Source: a bacterium HR15 (GTDB lineage: Bacteria > Armatimonadota > Fimbriimonadia > Fimbriimonadales > GBS-DC). From it: a DNA stretch of 64,000 nt. Below the pieces are notes generated by a model. That model ran no database searches and was not told the DNA's origin. It saw only the letters and a list, made by a program, of their open reading frames with translations. The translations under genes and the position numbers were made by a program. Positions 9,771 through 54,861 of the stretch are shown piece after piece (position 1 is the stretch's first letter; every line of letters begins with the position of its first letter). The stretch spans positions 124,001 through 188,000 of the forward strand of contig BEHR01000001.1 in the NCBI GenBank assembly GCA_002898555.1, written 5' to 3'.

Positions 9771-11246
9771 TCATAGCATGTTCACGAATCGTTCGGTCTC
9801 GCGCGGATAGGTGCTGAACGGGTCACGCATGTCGACCTGGCGGTTGCGGTCGACATAGACGATATCCCAGTCGATGTAGTAGCGGTTGTAGCGTCGCTCT
9901 GCGAGGCGTTTGATAATGTAGCCGCGCGCTGCGGCGCGCGTGTTCTGCGGAGGGGTGGTGACGGCGGCTTCGATCTGCACATCGTCCACCAGCCGCTTCA
10001 CCTCGCCCATCTGTTGCAACGCATAATACAGTCCCTGCTCCGGGTGGATGTTGTGATATTCCAGATCGATGGCGTGTAGCGCGTCGTCGCCCCATTTCGC
10101 CCCTGTCTCCTCCATATAGGTGCGCAGCACTTTGAGCTTGATCAGCCAGTCGATGCGGTCTTCCAGTTGTTCAGGGTCGCTTTCGAGCATGTCCAGCACA
10201 TACGCCCACTCCTGCAGCACCCAGTCGGTTTCGGGGTCGCGCCCAGCGAAGCGCCGCTGTGCCAGTTGCAGATAGATACGTTGCAGATCGATGGCACTGA
10301 TGGTGCTGCCGTCCAGCATTTGCACAATCCATTTGCGGGTTGGATCGCGCGAGACGCTTTTGAGCGTGTGGAGCGCGTCCTGCAGACGCAACCAGTTCGG
10401 CAACGCACGCGATTCGGCTAAATCCAGCACGAGGCAGGTAGTGCCTATCTTGAGCGCCATCGCATACTCGCTCATGTTGCCCTCGCCAAACAGCAGGTGC
10501 AGCCGTTGATAGTTCTGGTAGCCGTACACGCTGTCCCATTTCGGGTTGATAATCGCGCGGTTGAAGCGCACGCGGGAGGCGTTCTCGCGCACGATATGGT
10601 CCGCACGCTGCGAGAGCTGATAGGTCACGGTTGGGTCAGGCTCCACATTATAGACATTGGAGACCCAGATGAAGTCGATGGGGTGGTCTGCCACCTCGGA
10701 GAGGGAGGGTCGGAAGCCTGCGTGTTCGAGCCGATGTCCACCCACACGCCCCGCGCCCGCGAAAATCTGGCGCGTGGTGAGGAAGGGAAGCACGGTCTTG
10801 TGCCAGTCGGAGGGTAGGCGGTCGTCGGTGCGAATGAGATAGTTCTCGTGGCAGCCGAAGGTGTGCCCCGCAAAGTGGTCCACATTATTGTTATGGAAGC
10901 TGACCCGCTCTTCCCAGCCCAACCCACGCAGGATATCGACGATAATGCGCTGTCCTGCCTTCTCGTGGCGCACCAGGTCGAACAGGCTGGCGCATTCCGG
11001 CGTGGCGTACTCCAGGTGGCTGCCGACGGCGTCGATATAGAGTCGTCCGCCATTAATCAGGAACCCGCCACTGCGGGCAGGTTCAAACGCTTCGTCACGG
11101 GCGGTCAGGTCGATCAAGCCGAGCCGCGCCTTGTGGAAGGCGTAGTTCTTGACCGCTTCGACGACCGTCTCGGAGGTGCCGATGCGCTCATCGCGCACGA
11201 AGCACCCAAACTCCGTCTCGATCCCGAAGATACGGCGACCAATCAT
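9771..11246 (-). CDS. pafA: UBact/Pup ligase PafA
   Basis: A carboxylate-amine ligase of the glutamine-synthetase-like PafA/Dop family, 491 residues. It joins the C-terminal Glu of the modifier to substrate lysines using ATP. Diagnostic features are the N-terminal GIETEFG, the catalytic-Asp strand GGRLYIDAVGSHLEYATPEC (PafA-type GSH-EYAT, not the HAHPEY of Dop), FKNN-like FHNNNVDH with GCHENYL, and RLHLLFGEGNMSEYAMALKIGT. The C-terminus DPFSTYPRETERFVNML matches the PafA C-terminal domain. There is no Dop loop. Shine-Dalgarno gaggtga precedes the ATG. It is the last proteasome gene of a five-gene cluster. Confidence 0.92.
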   Translation of the reverse strand: MIGRRIFGIETEFGCFVRDERIGTSETVVEAVKNYAFHKARLGLIDLTARDEAFEPARSGGFLINGGRLYIDAVGSHLEYATPECASLFDLVRHEKAGQRIIVDILRGLGWEERVSFHNNNVDHFAGHTFGCHENYLIRTDDRLPSDWHKTVLPFLTTRQIFAGAGRVGGHRLEHAGFRPSLSEVADHPIDFIWVSNVYNVEPDPTVTYQLSQRADHIVRENASRVRFNRAIINPKWDSVYGYQNYQRLHLLFGEGNMSEYAMALKIGTTCLVLDLAESRALPNWLRLQDALHTLKSVSRDPTRKWIVQMLDGSTISAIDLQRIYLQLAQRRFAGRDPETDWVLQEWAYVLDMLESDPEQLEDRIDWLIKLKVLRTYMEETGAKWGDDALHAIDLEYHNIHPEQGLYYALQQMGEVKRLVDDVQIEAAVTTPPQNTRAAARGYIIKRLAERRYNRYYIDWDIVYVDRNRQVDMRDPFSTYPRETERFVNML

Positions 11247-11308
11247 GCAAGTTCACCTCGTTGTTTGGGCAAGTAGTGTTTGATTCGCCACTCACTCTTC
11301 ACCATACG

Positions 11309-12061
11309 CTATAAATGACGCAGGTAGCCCTGCAGTTGTTCCGCCGGCACGAGCCGAAAGCGGTTTTCACGCATGGTCTGTCGTTCCAGGATTCCCAGTT
11401 CGATCTGTGCCTCCTGCAGCTCCTCGCGCAGACGCTCTCGCGCACGCGATTCGGCGATTGGCTCGCCCTCTTCTTGCATTGCGGCTTCGCGTGCGATACC
11501 CCACGCGACCATCGCGGCAGGGATTGCCTTCTCGAAGGTGGGAATGCCGTCGAGGGTCTCACTCAGGAAGCGCATCGCCTGCTCTTCCGCGCGCGTCGTG
11601 CCCGCAATCACGGCGAACCGCTCAGCAGGTGTGAACTCCCCGTCATAGTTGAGGATGTAGAACAGGTCGCGTTCTGGTGAGGCGTGCAGTTCCCCGAACA
11701 GGGCGCGCACCACGAACGGTGTGGTCAGTGGGTCGCCAAACGCCTTTTTGAGCGCAGGGCTGAGCGCAAAGCCGACCACCCGCTGCACTGTCACATCGTC
11801 GGGGCTGCGCACGAAGCCCTCCTGGTGTGCAAAATCGATCGCTGCCAGGCGCAGCGTCTCCACATCCGCTTGGTTGCCTATGGCGGAGAGCATCAGGCGG
11901 TCATAGATTTCGAACACTTTGCGCCCGCGTCGGCGCGTGGTAAAGAGCAACACCCCGTTCTCATAGCTGATGCCAATGACAGGGCTGCCCGCTTGCAAAC
12001 GGTTGCGGATATATTGCGCTCGCTGCTGGATGTTCTCTTGAAAGTCGTAGGGGGTCAACAT
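11309..12061 (-). CDS. prcA: 20S proteasome alpha subunit
   Basis: 250 residues with the proteasome fold and no catalytic N-terminal Thr; it begins MLTPYDFQENIQQRAQYIRNRL, the alpha-type N-terminal helix. GISYENGVLLFTTRR is the first beta hairpin. Alpha rings form the gated outer pores of the 20S core and receive the ATPase. The C-terminal helix is charged (ESRARERLREELQEAQ). It starts 6 bases after the prcB stop with ggagggtga as ribosome-binding site, so the two are translated together. Confidence 0.9.
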   Translation of the reverse strand: MLTPYDFQENIQQRAQYIRNRLQAGSPVIGISYENGVLLFTTRRRGRKVFEIYDRLMLSAIGNQADVETLRLAAIDFAHQEGFVRSPDDVTVQRVVGFALSPALKKAFGDPLTTPFVVRALFGELHASPERDLFYILNYDGEFTPAERFAVIAGTTRAEEQAMRFLSETLDGIPTFEKAIPAAMVAWGIAREAAMQEEGEPIAESRARERLREELQEAQIELGILERQTMRENRFRLVPAEQLQGYLRHL

Positions 12062-12067
12062 CGGTTC

Positions 12068-12913
12068 TCACCCTCCGCGCAGGGAAGTGACGATTTCGCG
12101 CAGGGTCGATTCGGGCACTTCGAACACGCCCTCGCGGTTCACATAGCGGGCAGTGGGCAGCACCTTGTCGATGCCGCCTGTGGCAGCGTCCAGGTCGGCG
12201 GCGATGTCCAGCAGCAGAATCGCCTCACGCAGCACCTCCTCCAACGGTCGCTCGCTGAACGCGCCTTTGGTCTTGGCGATATAGTCGAACACGCCGCGAA
12301 TGCGCTCGGCGCCGGAGCCAGCGGCGCCGTAATCGGGCGTTTCGAAACGGGCACCGCTGGCGTCGTAGAAGAAGATACGCCCAGCGTCCTGATCGGGGTC
12401 ATACGCGCTCAAGATAGGGATGAACAGTCCGATCCCGCTCAGCGCGTTCGGCAGGTTCGAGGCAAGCACGCGGCTCACCTCCTGCAGTTTCCCGTCGAGG
12501 CTCATCGGCTGAAGTTGACTGCGGGCATAATACTTGAAGGCGTGACGCAGGTAGCGCACCACCTCCATCGCGCGTCCATACGCCCCTGCAATCGCCATCA
12601 GCGTGTAGTCGTCCAGCGGGATGATTTTATCGGCGCGGTCATACATCACGACATTCGCCGCAGTGGCACGGCGGTCGCCCACATTCAGCACGCCACCCTT
12701 GAACTTGACGGCAATTACCGTCGTGCCGTGCACCTCCAGGCGGGGGAAAGCCCCCTCGCTGCTGGGGAGCGCGGGCATAGCCGACCTCGGTGCTCCTTGT
12801 CCCTCATCCCTTAGAGGCGAGAGCTTCGGCGTGGCGAACAGAGGCAGCGTCGTGCCCGTTTGCGCCTGCCATTCCCGAAGCAGGCTCGCGAAATCGCCCT
12901 GATGCCCTCTCAT
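12068..12913 (-). CDS. prcB: 20S proteasome beta subunit with 63-residue propeptide
   Basis: The catalytic subunit. The mature N-terminus is the Thr of HG|TTVIAVKFKGGVLNVGDRRAT, with the conserved Asp and Arg of that strand, so autocleavage should remove residues 1-63. ATG 12913 is chosen because it lies one base after the ubact stop; the frame runs on to 13009 but only over ubact. The propeptide is Pro/Ser-rich and its DNA contains a GGGGG/CCCCC inverted repeat, suggesting repeat-derived sequence. It sits between ubact and prcA, the standard order. Confidence 0.92.
   Translation of the reverse strand: MRGHQGDFASLLREWQAQTGTTLPLFATPKLSPLRDEGQGAPRSAMPALPSSEGAFPRLEVHGTTVIAVKFKGGVLNVGDRRATAANVVMYDRADKIIPLDDYTLMAIAGAYGRAMEVVRYLRHAFKYYARSQLQPMSLDGKLQEVSRVLASNLPNALSGIGLFIPILSAYDPDQDAGRIFFYDASGARFETPDYGAAGSGAERIRGVFDYIAKTKGAFSERPLEEVLREAILLLDIAADLDAATGGIDKVLPTARYVNREGVFEVPESTLREIVTSLRGG
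12742..12755. repeat. GGGGG-AAAG-CCCCC inverted repeat in the prcB propeptide
   Basis: A perfect 5-bp G/C inverted repeat with a 4-base loop inside coding sequence for the Pro-rich propeptide. It could form a stable mRNA hairpin just 5' of the region encoding the catalytic Thr. Confidence 0.5.
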
Positions 12914-12914
12914 G

Positions 12915-13103
12915 CTACTCACCACTGCGTTGACGATAGCGACGCGCCTGCTCCGGGTCGATCCGCCGCATCCGTTTGAGCAGCTCGTTCGTGTCGGGAC
13001 GCTGCACATCGGGTCGCGTTGGACCGTCGCCGTCGCCGCCCGGTTTGGTAATCGGCTCCTGGGGGATAGGGCGTCGCAATCGCTCTTCCACTTGCCAGAT
13101 CAT
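12915..13103 (-). CDS. ubact: Ubiquitin-like modifier UBact (Pup homologue)
   Basis: A 62-residue, hydrophilic, disordered protein: Pro/Gly-rich middle (ITKPGGDGDGPTRPD), then a helical C-terminal half ending RYRQRSGE. The UBact variant of Pup described for Gram-negative phyla ends this way, whereas actinobacterial Pup ends GGQ or GGE. The terminal residue is already Glu, so no deamidation by Dop should be needed before PafA uses it. The ATG overlaps the dop stop (ATGA), with a strong aaggaggt site inside dop, so translation should be efficient and coupled. prcB begins one base after its stop. Confidence 0.93.
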   Translation of the reverse strand: MIWQVEERLRRPIPQEPITKPGGDGDGPTRPDVQRPDTNELLKRMRRIDPEQARRYRQRSGE

Positions 13104-14599
13104 GATTGAACCTCCTTGACCATCTGCACGAAGATGGATATGTTGGGAGCCGTCGTCAAACGGCGGCTCAGCGTGCGCATATCGAGATCAACCAGTCGGC
13201 TCAGGTCGAGCCGCACCGTCTGTTCCCCACTGCGCAGTATAATCCGTTCCCAGTTGAGCGTTTCGATCTGCTCGGCAAATCGCTGAACGCATAGCCCACG
13301 AATGGCAGCGCGTGTGTCCATTGGCGGTTGGTGAATCGCTTGCTCGATGGCCTCCATGCTGACCAGCGTGAGCATGCGCCCCTGCTCCACCAGGGCATAG
13401 TAAAGCCCTTCGGTGGGGTCTATGTTATGATACTCCAGATCGAGGGCAAAAAGTGCCGGGTCGTCCCATGAGACGCCCTCCGATTCCACATAAAGGTTCA
13501 GCAGTTGTCGCTTGGCGACCCAGTCGAGTCGGTCGGCAAGTAGGTCTGGGTCGGCTTCCAGCACATCAAGCACCGTTTGCCACTCGCGCAGGAGCCAGTC
13601 GGTCTCGGCGTCGCGTCCGAGAAACTGTTCTTGCGCCGCTTGTAGATAGACGCGCTGGATATCGATGGCGCTGAGCGTGCCGCCATCGGTTTCCACCAGC
13701 CATTTCATGTCGGGGTCGCGTGAGAGGCGTTGCGCCTCGCGCACAGGGTTCGGGATAGTAATGGGCGTTCGCCAGCCCGCTTCTGTCAAATCCAACACGA
13801 GGGCGGTCGTGCCCACTTTGAGCGCGGTGGCATACTCGCTCATGTTCGCATCGCCGCAAATCACATGCAGGCGTCGGTAGCGGCGCATCGTGGCGTGTGG
13901 CTCGTCGCGTGTGTTGAAGATGGGGCGCCGATAGAGCGTCTCCACATTCATGATGTCCATATAGAAATCGGCACGCTGCGACAGCTGAAACGGCACACGC
14001 GGGTTCGGCTCCACCTCCACGCCCACCTTGCCCGCCCCCGCATAGAGCATGCGCGTCACCAGAAAGGGGAGCATATTGCTCGCCAGCGTTTCAAAGGGGA
14101 CTTGGCGCGTGAGCGAGTAGCTTTCATGGCAGCCGTAGCTGCTGCCGTGATGATCGGTGTTGTTTTTGTAGAGGGTGGCTTTGTTGCCGGTATATTGCTG
14201 GTAGGCTTGGGCACATGCCAACACGATGCGTTCCCCGGCTTTATCGTGCGCAATCAATTCGAGCAGGCGTCGGCATTCGGGCGTGGCATATTCAGGATGG
14301 GCATGGTCATTATAGAGGCGTGCGCCGTTGCCCAGCGCGTGGTCGGAGCGTGCCTCGCGCTCCGAGATAGGCAGGGGATGCTCGCGCTCAATTTGCGCAT
14401 CGTGTGGGTCCACTTCCAGATGCTCCACGCGGAAACCGCGCATATCGCGGCGCGGGTCCTCCAGGCGATAGTCCCAGGTTCGAACCGCATGGAAGGGACA
14501 ACTGCGCACCACGCCTATCGCATCGATTAGCTGGTCGGCAACCCCCCGACCCTCCACATACAAGCCATACTCCGTCTCAATCCCCGTTAGGCGATGCAC
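13100..14599 (-). CDS. dop: Depupylase/deamidase homologue Dop
   Basis: A PafA/Dop-family enzyme of 499 residues that hydrolyses modifier-substrate isopeptide bonds. It is Dop rather than PafA because it has the Dop-loop region WDYRLEDPRRDMRGF and the strand GARLYNDHAHPEYATPEC. GIETEYG, LYKNNTDHHGSSYGCHE and RLHVICGDANMSEYATALKVGT are the other family blocks. Because the modifier ends in Glu, the deamidase activity may be unnecessary here. The start is GTG, 6 bases after a TATAAT box (14611-14606), which predicts a leaderless mRNA for the head of the proteasome operon. Confidence 0.92.
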   Translation of the reverse strand: MHRLTGIETEYGLYVEGRGVADQLIDAIGVVRSCPFHAVRTWDYRLEDPRRDMRGFRVEHLEVDPHDAQIEREHPLPISEREARSDHALGNGARLYNDHAHPEYATPECRRLLELIAHDKAGERIVLACAQAYQQYTGNKATLYKNNTDHHGSSYGCHESYSLTRQVPFETLASNMLPFLVTRMLYAGAGKVGVEVEPNPRVPFQLSQRADFYMDIMNVETLYRRPIFNTRDEPHATMRRYRRLHVICGDANMSEYATALKVGTTALVLDLTEAGWRTPITIPNPVREAQRLSRDPDMKWLVETDGGTLSAIDIQRVYLQAAQEQFLGRDAETDWLLREWQTVLDVLEADPDLLADRLDWVAKRQLLNLYVESEGVSWDDPALFALDLEYHNIDPTEGLYYALVEQGRMLTLVSMEAIEQAIHQPPMDTRAAIRGLCVQRFAEQIETLNWERIILRSGEQTVRLDLSRLVDLDMRTLSRRLTTAPNISIFVQMVKEVQS

Positions 14600-49881: not shown

Positions 49882-50047
49882 GGTACTCCCCTCAAATCAT
49901 GATGATACTCCCTGTGAAACCCGCATCGTTACAGAAGCGTTATAAGCCCCTGCTTCTAAATCTATTAAGGTACTCCCTATGTATGCCAGCCTCCTGCTTT
50001 TGACATGCAGGAAAAGAGGTATCTGTGCTGAAGGTAGCTGCCCGGCG

Positions 50048-51055
50048 ATGGAACTTGGCTGGCTGAAAGAACCTGCGCCCTATCGGGATGTGGTTATTTC
50101 GCAGCGGGTGCGACTGGCTCGGAATCTCCTTCTCTTCCCGTTTCCCCATGCAGCCAGCGAGGCGCAGCTGCGGGAGGTCGCGCAGCTGCTCCGCGCTGTA
50201 TTGGAACCCATTGGATTAGGCACAGGTGGCGTGAAAGAGTTGGCTCAGCTGAGCTTGGATGAGCGGGCGCAACTGGCGGGTGCGCGAGTAATCAGCCCCG
50301 CCTTGCTCCCTGCCTTGCCCCACCGCTGGGTGCTGCTCAGCGAGGACGGCAGCGTTGTCGCGCTTATTAATGAGGAAGACCACCTGCGCCTGCAAATCAC
50401 GCACGCAGGCTGGCAGCCTGACCGTATGGTGGACGAGCTGCACCACTGGGAACAGCGGCTGGATGCGCTGCCGATGCGCTGGGGCTATTCCAGTCGGCTG
50501 GGCTATCTGACTGCCTCGCCTATTAATCTTGGTTCGGGTATTCGACTGGGGCTACTTATGCACCTCATGGGGTTGCAACGGGCACGCCAGATTACGCGCT
50601 GGCTGGAAGCGTTGCAAGCGCTGGGCTGTCACACCCGCGGATTGTATGGGGAGGGGAGCCTTGCCTTTGAGGGCTATGTGCAAATCTCGCTGCTGGGCAG
50701 GCGTGACCCTCTGCCTGAACTGCTGGCACGATTGCGCGGCACGCTGCGCACCCTGATTGAGGCGGAGCTGGAGGCACGGCTGCAACTCTCGATGGATGAA
50801 CTGGACGCCGAGTGGGAGGAGCTAAACACCACCTTGCGCCATGCCGCGTCGCTCTCGCTGGGCACAACGCTGCGCACGCTGGCGGTCCACCGCATGCGGG
50901 CAATGCTCAGGGGCGACGAGGCACAGCGCGACTTCACGGATCAACTCCTGTTCGGACTGGCGGTCTATCCTCCACCCGAACCCGACTACGCCGCCTCCGA
51001 ACGAGCAAGATGGTTGAGAGAAAACTATACTCTAACCATGAAGCACACAGAATGA
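50048..51055 (+). CDS. mcsB: Protein-arginine kinase, McsB-like
   Basis: 335 residues of the ATP:guanido phosphotransferase fold. Landmarks relative to ATG 50048: VVISQRVRLARN (15-26, nucleotide-binding Arg), INEEDHLRLQ (107-116), GYLTASPINLGSGIR (152-166) and TRGLYGEGS (196-204) with catalytic acidic residues kept. In canonical McsB the third block reads CPTNVGTG; here Cys is Ser (S157). McsB phosphorylates arginine to mark proteins for ClpCP. mcsA, ctsR and clpC are not in the window. Whether it is active is uncertain, because the thiol is replaced and the last 60 residues are divergent. Confidence 0.82.
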   Translation: MELGWLKEPAPYRDVVISQRVRLARNLLLFPFPHAASEAQLREVAQLLRAVLEPIGLGTGGVKELAQLSLDERAQLAGARVISPALLPALPHRWVLLSEDGSVVALINEEDHLRLQITHAGWQPDRMVDELHHWEQRLDALPMRWGYSSRLGYLTASPINLGSGIRLGLLMHLMGLQRARQITRWLEALQALGCHTRGLYGEGSLAFEGYVQISLLGRRDPLPELLARLRGTLRTLIEAELEARLQLSMDELDAEWEELNTTLRHAASLSLGTTLRTLAVHRMRAMLRGDEAQRDFTDQLLFGLAVYPPPEPDYAASERARWLRENYTLTMKHTE

Positions 51056-53012: not shown

Positions 53013-53169
53013 CTTCGCACCTCCATGCTCCCTATACGGCGCGATTCCCCTCGACATCACAGGACTTTAGTCCCAATCTGTCGCCCATGAGCGAGAGGAT
53101 ACCTCCACAGGAACCTTTCAGGGGAGTGTGGGGTATAATAGCGGTAGAAGCGAGGAGGTCAATCACCCT
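53013..53169. promoter_or_regulatory. Divergent control region between DUF2339 gene and proteasome ATPase
   Basis: Contains GGACTTTAGTCC (53062-53073). On the minus strand a TATAGG hexamer (53036-53031) follows it by 25 bases. On the plus strand GGTATAAT (about 53132-53139) precedes the ATPase, whose leader carries a gaggaggtc ribosome site. Confidence 0.55.
53062..53073. repeat. Palindrome GGACTTTAGTCC, copy 2
   Basis: Toward the DUF2339 gene on the minus strand it reads GGGACTAAAGTCC, preceded by ATGGGCGACAGATT; a TATAGG hexamer follows after 25 bases. Confidence 0.65.
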
Positions 53170-54861
53170 ATGGCACGGCGCTATGATAAGGACGACTTTT
53201 TCGAGGAGATGCCCGAAACGCAGATACGCGCACTGGCAATCCTCGAAGAGATTATGCGAATCGCGCCCCGCACCGACCTGCGCCTAATCCGACTGCTACA
53301 ACTGTTGCACCATCAGCTCCAGGTCGACGAGAAGCAGATGCAGGAGGCAATGCAGGCGCTTCAGGAGTACGAAGAGGCGTATCAGAAACTCACCTCGCCT
53401 GCCAACCGCATCGGCGTTTTTCTCGGCTCCCCTGATGAGGATATCGCGCTGGTGGCGATTGGCGACAGCGAGTATTACGCGAACATCGACCCCAAACTGG
53501 AAAACAAGGAGTTCAAGGTTGGCACGCGTGTAAAGGTCAACGAGGCGTTCGCCGTCATCGGCGACCTGGGTTATCACCCCGCAGGTCCCGTGGTGAAGGT
53601 GCAAGAGGTGCTGGATGAGCAGCGTCTGCGCGTGGCGACCGATCCACAGGGGATGACCTCCCGCATCGTGTTCCGCTCCAGCGATCTCGCCGAAAAAGTG
53701 ATTAAACCGGGCGATGAAGTCCGCTTGGAGCCGAACTTCAAGGTGGCCATCGAGCATATTCCCCATCAGGAAGTGCGTGATTACTACTTCGAGGAAGTGC
53801 CCCCCATCGAGTGGAGCCAAATTGGGGGACAGGAGGAGGCGATTCGGCTCATCCGGGAGACCATCGAACTGCCCCTGCTGCATCCCGAAATATTCAAGCG
53901 CTTCGATAAACAGCCGTTGAAGGGCATCCTGCTCTATGGTCCACCCGGCTGCGGCAAGACGCTCATCGGCAAGGCAACTGCCTATAATCTCACACGCCAG
54001 TACTCCGAACGGTTGGGCAGACCCGTCAAAGAGTACTTTATGTACATCAGTGGACCCAAGATTCTCAACATGTGGCTGGGCGAGACGGAGCGGATGGTGC
54101 GTGAAATCTTTGCGATTGCCCGCGAGAAGGCGCGCGAGGGCTTTCTGGTGTTTATCTTTATCGACGAGGCGGAATCGATTCTGCGCGTGCGCAGCACAGG
54201 AAGGTGGCTTAACATCTCCAACACCGTCGTGCCCCAGTTCTGTGCCGAGATGGATGGGCTGGTCAGCCTTGAAAATGTGGTGGTGATGCTTACCTCGAAC
54301 CGACCCGACTATATCGACCCCGCCATTTTGCGACCCGGACGCATCGACCGCAAGGTGAAGGTAAGGCGCCCCGATCGCGATGCAACCACCGAGATTTTTG
54401 GCATCTATTTGCACGAGAACATCCCTCTTGACCCTGACTTCGTGGCGCAGTTTGACAGTCCGCGCGAGGCGCGAGAGTGCGTGATTGAACAGGCGGTGCA
54501 GTACCTGTGGCGCAAGTCGCCCGACACGGAGTTCCTGCAGGTCTATCTCCGAAATGGGGGTGTGGAGACGCTCTATTGGCGCGATCTGGTCAGCGGCGCA
54601 CTGATTAAATCGGTGGTGGATCGGGCGAAGGAGTTCGCTATTCGCCGCGCCATCGATAACCCTGAAGACGAGCATGGTATTCGCCCCGATGACCTGCGTC
54701 GCGCCATCGAGATGGAGTATCGTGAGAACGAAATCTTCCCCAAGTCGGACGCGATGGAGGATTGGCTCAAACTGATCGACTACGAACCCGAAAATGTCGC
54801 CAGCGTGAAACCTATCCGCCCCGACGCCCGTCAGGACGACACGCGCCGCACAATTATCTAA
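53170..54861 (+). CDS. arc: Proteasome-associated AAA ATPase (ARC/Mpa)
   Basis: 563 residues. N-terminal helical/coiled-coil part to about 90 (QMQEAMQALQEYEEAYQKL), OB-type beta domains to about 205, then AAA: IGGQEEAIRLIRETIELPLL, Walker A YGPPGCGKTLIGKA, pore loop in ILNMWLGETER (Trp in place of the usual Tyr), Walker B IFIDEAESIL and RPGRIDRKV. It recognises the UBact/Pup tag, unfolds the substrate and feeds the 20S core. The C-terminus is DDTRRTII, without the Tyr-Leu end that docks Mpa onto the proteasome. It is about 38 kb from the rest of the system. Confidence 0.9.
   Translation: MARRYDKDDFFEEMPETQIRALAILEEIMRIAPRTDLRLIRLLQLLHHQLQVDEKQMQEAMQALQEYEEAYQKLTSPANRIGVFLGSPDEDIALVAIGDSEYYANIDPKLENKEFKVGTRVKVNEAFAVIGDLGYHPAGPVVKVQEVLDEQRLRVATDPQGMTSRIVFRSSDLAEKVIKPGDEVRLEPNFKVAIEHIPHQEVRDYYFEEVPPIEWSQIGGQEEAIRLIRETIELPLLHPEIFKRFDKQPLKGILLYGPPGCGKTLIGKATAYNLTRQYSERLGRPVKEYFMYISGPKILNMWLGETERMVREIFAIAREKAREGFLVFIFIDEAESILRVRSTGRWLNISNTVVPQFCAEMDGLVSLENVVVMLTSNRPDYIDPAILRPGRIDRKVKVRRPDRDATTEIFGIYLHENIPLDPDFVAQFDSPREARECVIEQAVQYLWRKSPDTEFLQVYLRNGGVETLYWRDLVSGALIKSVVDRAKEFAIRRAIDNPEDEHGIRPDDLRRAIEMEYRENEIFPKSDAMEDWLKLIDYEPENVASVKPIRPDARQDDTRRTII

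Follow-up and report, generated by a model that had tools for sequence, protein, structure and literature searches.

The window, the whole 64,000-nucleotide stretch of DNA analysed here, belongs to a Fimbriimonadales (Armatimonadota) genome of 3.04 Mb that is 98 % complete, and contains a gene for an McsB-like protein-arginine kinase, an enzyme of the class that marks damaged proteins through arginine phosphorylation, together with a UBact gene cluster and a proteasome ATPase gene. The principal features are given below, the invariance of each motif being scored over 160 aligned Armatimonadota kinases.

50048..51055, forward strand: McsB-like protein-arginine kinase, 335 aa, with PF00217, NCBIfam, PDB and Foldseek matches
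50099..50125, forward strand: SQRVRLARN, containing R20, R22 and R25, invariant in 160/160; equivalent by motif to R29, R31 and R34 of B. subtilis McsB
50369..50389, forward strand: NEEDHLR, containing E110 (catalytic Glu), D111, H112 and R114, invariant in 160/160
50516..50518, forward strand: Ser157 (codon TCG), standing where phosphagen kinases and McsB have their active-site Cys (C167 of B. subtilis McsB; C271 of arginine kinase)
50636..50659, forward strand: RGLYGEGS lid, with R197 and E202, the latter being the second catalytic Glu; both invariant in 160/160
50990..51007, forward strand: AASERA, in which the phospho-arginine receptor motif RDxxRA (from PMC7235348) survives in degenerate form, with R and D lost and the second R and A kept
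12915..13103, reverse strand: UBact tag, 62 aa (context only); NF033388 90.5 bits against a cut-off of 35
53128..54861, forward strand: proteasome ATPase, ARC/Mpa type (context only); TIGR03689 449 bits, under the cut-off of 505

The open reading frame of the kinase occupies 49979-51055 on the forward strand, with an upstream in-frame ATG at 49979 giving 358 residues and an internal ATG at 50048 giving 335. Profile searching returned it as the sole PF00217 match in its genome, and a score of 101 bits against a cut-off of 22.4 placed it within the ATP:guanido phosphotransferase superfamily; the match covers the catalytic domain alone, and the phosphagen-kinase N domain is absent according to Pfam. 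Among the NCBIfam models those of protein-arginine kinase/McsB scored best, with 150 and 144 bits, yet stayed under the equivalog levels of 385 and 500 bits respectively, and CPTN-bearing relatives from the same phylum also fell short of the cut-off (367 and 333 as against 385 bits). The top PDB chains were likewise McsB, the first being 6fh1 (E 5.5e-34), and the named relatives of 61-73 % identity were Fimbriimonadales/Armatimonadetes MAGs. An AlphaFold model built from 13 sequences was of moderate confidence (mean pLDDT 70.9; pTM 0.67) and of low quality over two active-site stretches, 148-163 and 199-208; submitted to Foldseek, it retrieved McsB chains at each of ranks 1-12, the first eight with query TM values of 0.71-0.75 over 344-355 columns, almost the full length. 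The kinase is thus modelled as having the McsB fold, with both phosphotransferase and dimerisation parts. These matches bear out the McsB-like identity proposed in an earlier note made from the DNA letters, and the replacement of CPTN by SPIN described there was confirmed by the TCG codon at 50516, with NEEDHLR, SPINLGSGIR and RGLYGEGS all present. As judged from its sequence, the gene is an McsB-fold protein-arginine kinase in which Ser157 has replaced the active-site Cys, and both gene and motifs are real.

Across the phylum, PF00217 was detected in 169/291 genomes, and kinases were aligned from 160 of these 169, the nine left unread being G037, G048, G101, G107, G159, G172, G173, G235 and G245. 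The SPINLGSGIR motif lacks the Cys within CPTN that is otherwise a hallmark of McsB, and the suggestion that this marks the window gene as an oddity did not survive comparison: the active-site place is taken by Ser in 145 of the 160 kinases, by Cys in 8, by His in 5 and by Asp in 2, and within the window's own order (95 kinases) by Ser in 92, Cys in 2 and Asp in 1. The kinase was present in 118/151 relatives. His occurred in L064 and L068 (family f7), L060 (f20) and L085 and L090 (f21), and Asp in genomes G021 and G239. The two order kinases with Cys, L180 (G058) and L126 (G029), both from Fimbriimonadales, bear a full CPTN inside the Ser clade, as a result of reversion, retention or transfer, the kinase tree being a quick one with open branches.

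All other catalytic positions checked were uniform. The equivalents of arginine-kinase R124, R126, E225, D226, H227, R229, N274, R280, R309 and E314 were identical in 160/160 sequences, as was N160 of the window kinase, and the catalytic Glu pair and nucleotide-binding arginines expected of McsB were accordingly found in every one; averaged over alignment columns, the most frequent residue had a share of 0.48. Since these residues do not vary, the Cys is the sole known active-site residue that changes. The arginine-kinase residue numbers, and some of those for McsB, come only in part from the papers cited. Six of the seven arginines reported as essential in B. subtilis McsB (PMC7235348) have equivalents by motif among the invariant positions. 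Estimates of dN/dS lay between 0.01 and 0.23 in 11 of 14 kinase pairs, dS being saturated in the other three, and by these values the gene is under purifying selection. Two further proposals were discarded: a local replacement Cys, four residues on, occurs in 30/160 kinases and in none of family f1, and is no general answer, while the change of GEG to GES in family f3 is no loss of a catalytic residue, the catalytic Glu being the E of GE, kept in 160/160.

As to the elements through which McsB is controlled, PMC7235348 describes four arginines as functionally important in B. subtilis: R337, which is essential, and R341 in the receptor motif, and R96 and R169 in McsA. The window kinase lacks the RDxxRA motif, and RDxxR was found in only 9/160 Armatimonadota kinases, among them four of the five in families f9, f30 and f31, and that of f41. 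The R337 equivalent was Arg in 6/8 Cys, 2/5 His, 3/139 Ser and 0/2 Asp kinases with letters at that place, and the McsA R96 equivalent was Arg alongside 5/7 Cys, 4/4 His, 1/2 Asp and 7/77 Ser kinases. By count, the association of this McsA second-finger Arg with the kinase site gave a Fisher p of 7.6e-7, but only five independent tree pairs were available and no significance remained once ancestry was allowed for; the apparent co-variation is suggestive only.

Neighbourhoods also differed between kinase families. CPTN lineages have mostly kept the canonical mcsA-mcsB arrangement: in families f9, f30 and f31 the CPTN kinase adjoins a full two-finger McsA with a UVR part, in f41 the McsA match to the CPTN kinase lies on another contig, and the start of clpC was found beside the f31 kinase, with clpC not seen in the available flanks of the f9, f30 and f41 kinases (the f30 locus ends with the kinase). 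In many Ser lineages McsA is encoded by a short gene or is fused to McsB, often with clpC adjoining, and Ser, His and Asp kinases with neighbouring or fused McsA, often with clpC, were recorded in many families. A shorter McsA, in which no UVR part was found by pattern, adjoins the Ser, His or Asp kinases of f7, f10, f16, f21, f28, f32, f37 and f38, and 28 of the 31 kinases in these eight families are adjoined by clpC. A one-finger McsA occurs in f26 (7/7), and in f8 McsA-like zinc fingers and an McsB-like kinase share one open reading frame of ~475 aa (9/9: L105-L107, L109, L111-L114 and L118). The f5 kinases have clpC alongside and no McsA next door (4/4), and neither gene was seen in the available flanks of the f1 (14) and f3 (77) kinases; in the window's order the kinase stands mostly alone.

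An apparent loss of McsA, argued from UVR evidence only, was overturned by a search built on an alignment of 12 zinc-finger McsAs, the profile of which matches the solved McsA 8wtb_B at 4.3e-35. At E 0.01 this gave matches in 182/291 genomes, some of the weak ones surely chance, and in the window's own genome identified a candidate mini-McsA (G000:C45:7103-7342; E 4.1e-6) of 89 aa with two CxxC pairs and two fingers, whose start and the stop of an ilvE-like gene (aminotransferase class IV) overlap. A mini-McsA lay directly behind ilvE in 18/18 loci chosen from f1, f3 and f5, and the arrangement was absent from both f17 loci examined. With a profile of 15 mini-McsAs, values of 2.9e-9 and 2.2e-7 were obtained for solved McsA and of 2.9e-8 for GATA zinc fingers, and the NCBIfam McsA models gave no match; because GATA fingers match about equally well, the assignment rests on synteny, co-occurrence and the second-finger pattern. 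Among order genomes, 90 had both kinase and McsA match, 7 neither, 10 the kinase only and 6 the McsA match only (tallied manually; Fisher p 5e-4, kinship ignored and one edge fragment counted as a kinase). The UVR search of the genome had returned two strong matches, in open reading frames of 615 and 663 aa which, from their size, are presumably UvrC and UvrB, plus a weak one (E 0.86) within a 169-aa frame (L048) devoid of CxxC pairs, which was set aside by eye as a candidate McsA. The check for mcsA prompted by the earlier note therefore yielded an McsA-like protein, albeit shrunken and unlinked to the kinase.

The corresponding check for clpC was positive, the genome encoding a ClpC of 830 aa (L056:5645-8137). 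The ClpC N domain was matched in 110/113 order genomes, a few matches (G010, G019, G102 and G107) being at a level that ClpB could explain, and genomes devoid of the kinase still keep ClpC. Directly upstream of clpC lies a truncated copy of 498 aa (L056:3992-5488, on contig C20) with two Clp_N repeats, a weak first AAA module and no D2, its N domain being 90 % identical to that of the adjoining full ClpC; extra ClpC-like N domains in short open reading frames were also present in other order genomes. Profile searching found CtsR over cut-off in 0/291 genomes, with weak matches in two. B. subtilis, which we take to carry PF00217, Clp_N and CtsR genes, was negative for all three in control searches and positive for two other families, and the absence results, that for CtsR above all, are for this reason weaker than they look. 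In the genome's single LMW phosphatase the P-loop reads CVGNSCR, and this protein scored best as arsenate reductase; it is Thr rather than Ser in the P-loop (CXXXTXR) that sets the arginine specificity of YwlE-type phosphatases, according to PMC8001253. The expected YwlE-type signature was consequently not found in this sole LMW phosphatase, and the Thr form appeared in just one of 19 LMW-phosphatase P-loops read (30 loci), that of G250, a CPTN genome.

The presence of UBact in the same genome as the kinase was upheld. The tag gene is part of a compact cluster (9771-14599) comprising a Pup-ligase family gene, UBact, two proteasome subunits and a second Pup-ligase family gene; the two PF03136 (Pup_ligase) and two PF00227 genes identify it as a UBact system. 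The cluster lies ~40 kb from the proteasome ATPase gene, which itself starts ~2.07 kb downstream of the kinase, much as the earlier note had stated. That distance was correct, but a significance for it was not supported: an ATPase neighbour was found in 0/11 named relative loci (flanks of up to 6 kb a side), so that the idea of a kinase-ATPase unit was discarded and their closeness carries no weight. Of the two outcomes envisaged in that note, coexistence of two degradation marks and a changed kinase role, the gene content makes the former possible, with no sign seen of a physical unit between the systems, and some alteration of control is possible also; the singularity of Ser157 and the nearness of the ATPase have fallen away as arguments. 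Phospho-arginine has been reported in Mycolicibacterium smegmatis, for which PMC9604228 indicates no known McsB homologue.

Published work on the thiol cuts both ways. The C167S form of B. subtilis McsB is termed 'kinase inactive' in PMC7235348, and a review (PMC12467219) regards the corresponding Cys of S. aureus McsB as essential for catalysis and as held in position by the second McsA zinc finger. In arginine kinase the thiolate supplies one guanidinium hydrogen bond and polarises the guanidinium jointly with two Glu (PMC11075012), and Cys mutants are 'partially active' according to the title of a cited paper. A Ser kinase could therefore by analogy be active, either more slowly or with compensation. 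Among the matches listed in the open-access literature there was no account of a Cys-less McsB, which is weak evidence of novelty.

On balance the window gene probably encodes a divergent McsB orthologue that phosphorylates protein arginines without a thiol and under altered control. Phosphate from ATP would be transferred to protein arginines with a Ser hydroxyl standing in for the thiolate, which serves to position the guanidinium and to polarise it; the partner would most likely be the two-finger mini-McsA encoded behind the ilvE-like gene, and the marked targets would most likely pass to the ClpC protease of the same genome. Control would have been rebuilt, the phospho-arginine receptor motif, the UVR part of McsA and the McsA arginine on which stimulation depends in B. 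subtilis all being gone here. This interpretation draws on the sequence itself, the match of fold, the conserved residues, and the genes present with their surroundings; from these we infer catalysis, partner binding and the ClpC route. It is supported by the complete identity of the catalytic positions other than Cys against the far lower column mean, by low dN/dS, McsB fold matches and McsA neighbours or fusions, and by the synteny and co-occurrence of the mini-McsA; counting against it are the inactivity of the B. subtilis C167S kinase, the missing essential R337, the lack of a YwlE-type signature to complete the cycle, the retention of ClpC by kinase-less genomes, and the poor modelling of the active-site segments.

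The main rival, which appears unlikely, is that of a naturally kinase-dead McsB serving purely as an adaptor that delivers substrates to ClpC (or ClpX), with a nucleotide site conserved for structural or switching reasons. B. subtilis McsB is inactivated by this very replacement of Cys with Ser, and the C167S form still performs part of its function in MgsR turnover (half-life 12.3 min, compared with 17.7 min for the deletion), which the authors of PMC7235348 interpret as an adaptor role; a dead enzyme would nevertheless be expected to have lost some of the catalytic glutamates, Asp-His pair or phosphate-binding arginines, all invariant here, and Cys recurs inside the Ser clade with the whole CPTN. 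Very improbable is phosphagen storage by a kinase acting on free arginine or another small guanidine, rather than protein marking: membership of the same superfamily and the failure of CtsR, the classical protein target, to appear over cut-off in any of the 291 genomes would suit it, but the best sequence and fold matches are to McsB over the whole length, dimerisation part included, the phosphagen-kinase N domain is missing, and in related families McsA and clpC lie beside the kinase, or McsA is fused to it. Scarcely credible is a decaying gene en route to loss, since purifying selection, the breadth of occurrence among relatives and the invariant active-site residues all oppose it, even though the neighbourhood has been lost in the order and no kinase was found in some order genomes of 97-98 % completeness (e.g., G018, G023, G054 and G055).

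Set beside known systems, the window kinase resembles Bacillota McsB (PDB 6fh1, 6tv6, 8gqd and 8wtb) in its full-length fold, ATP and guanidinium residues, dimerisation part and a ClpC in the genome; it differs in having Ser for Cys and a degenerate RDxxRA, in scoring under the curated McsB cut-offs, and in lying outside any ctsR-mcsA-mcsB-clpC operon, CtsR not having been found. The mini-McsA shares with the McsA activator (PDB 8wtb_B and 8gqd_E) two CxxC pairs and a second finger of the form C-P-x-C...G-C-x-x-C-Y, whereas it has only 89 aa, no UVR part and Leu for the second-finger Arg, and its gene follows an ilvE-like one rather than belonging to an mcs operon. Invertebrate arginine kinase and creatine kinase have the same catalytic domain and residues, but possess a separate N-terminal domain, act on a free small substrate, retain Cys and work without an McsA partner. 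The B. subtilis C167S laboratory mutant carries the identical Cys to Ser change; in most of the kinases read from this phylum, however, Ser is the wild-type state, and both the surrounding motif (S-P/L-x-N) and the partners are altered. The Cys-less kinase is most likely a variant of McsB that is active, thiol-free and under altered control.

Extended to the phylum, it may tentatively be supposed that most Armatimonadota kinases work without Cys, and that loss of the thiol accompanied the dismantling of Bacillus-type activation (receptor, McsA UVR part and McsA second-finger Arg), leaving a minimal McsA, fused in some families, in cells of which at least that of the window's genome has a ubiquitin-like proteasome tag. 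The Cys of McsB has been called essential, and in B. subtilis its replacement by Ser is the usual way to make the enzyme dead. A phylum with Ser, His or Asp in its place, and no variation in the other catalytic residues checked, allows that rule to be put to a direct test; whether the thiol serves in catalysis, as a redox switch or in contact with McsA can be settled with a single purified enzyme. The minimal and fused forms of McsA offer material for structural work, and the findings as a whole suggest phospho-arginine marking well outside the Bacillota, beside a UBact proteasome.
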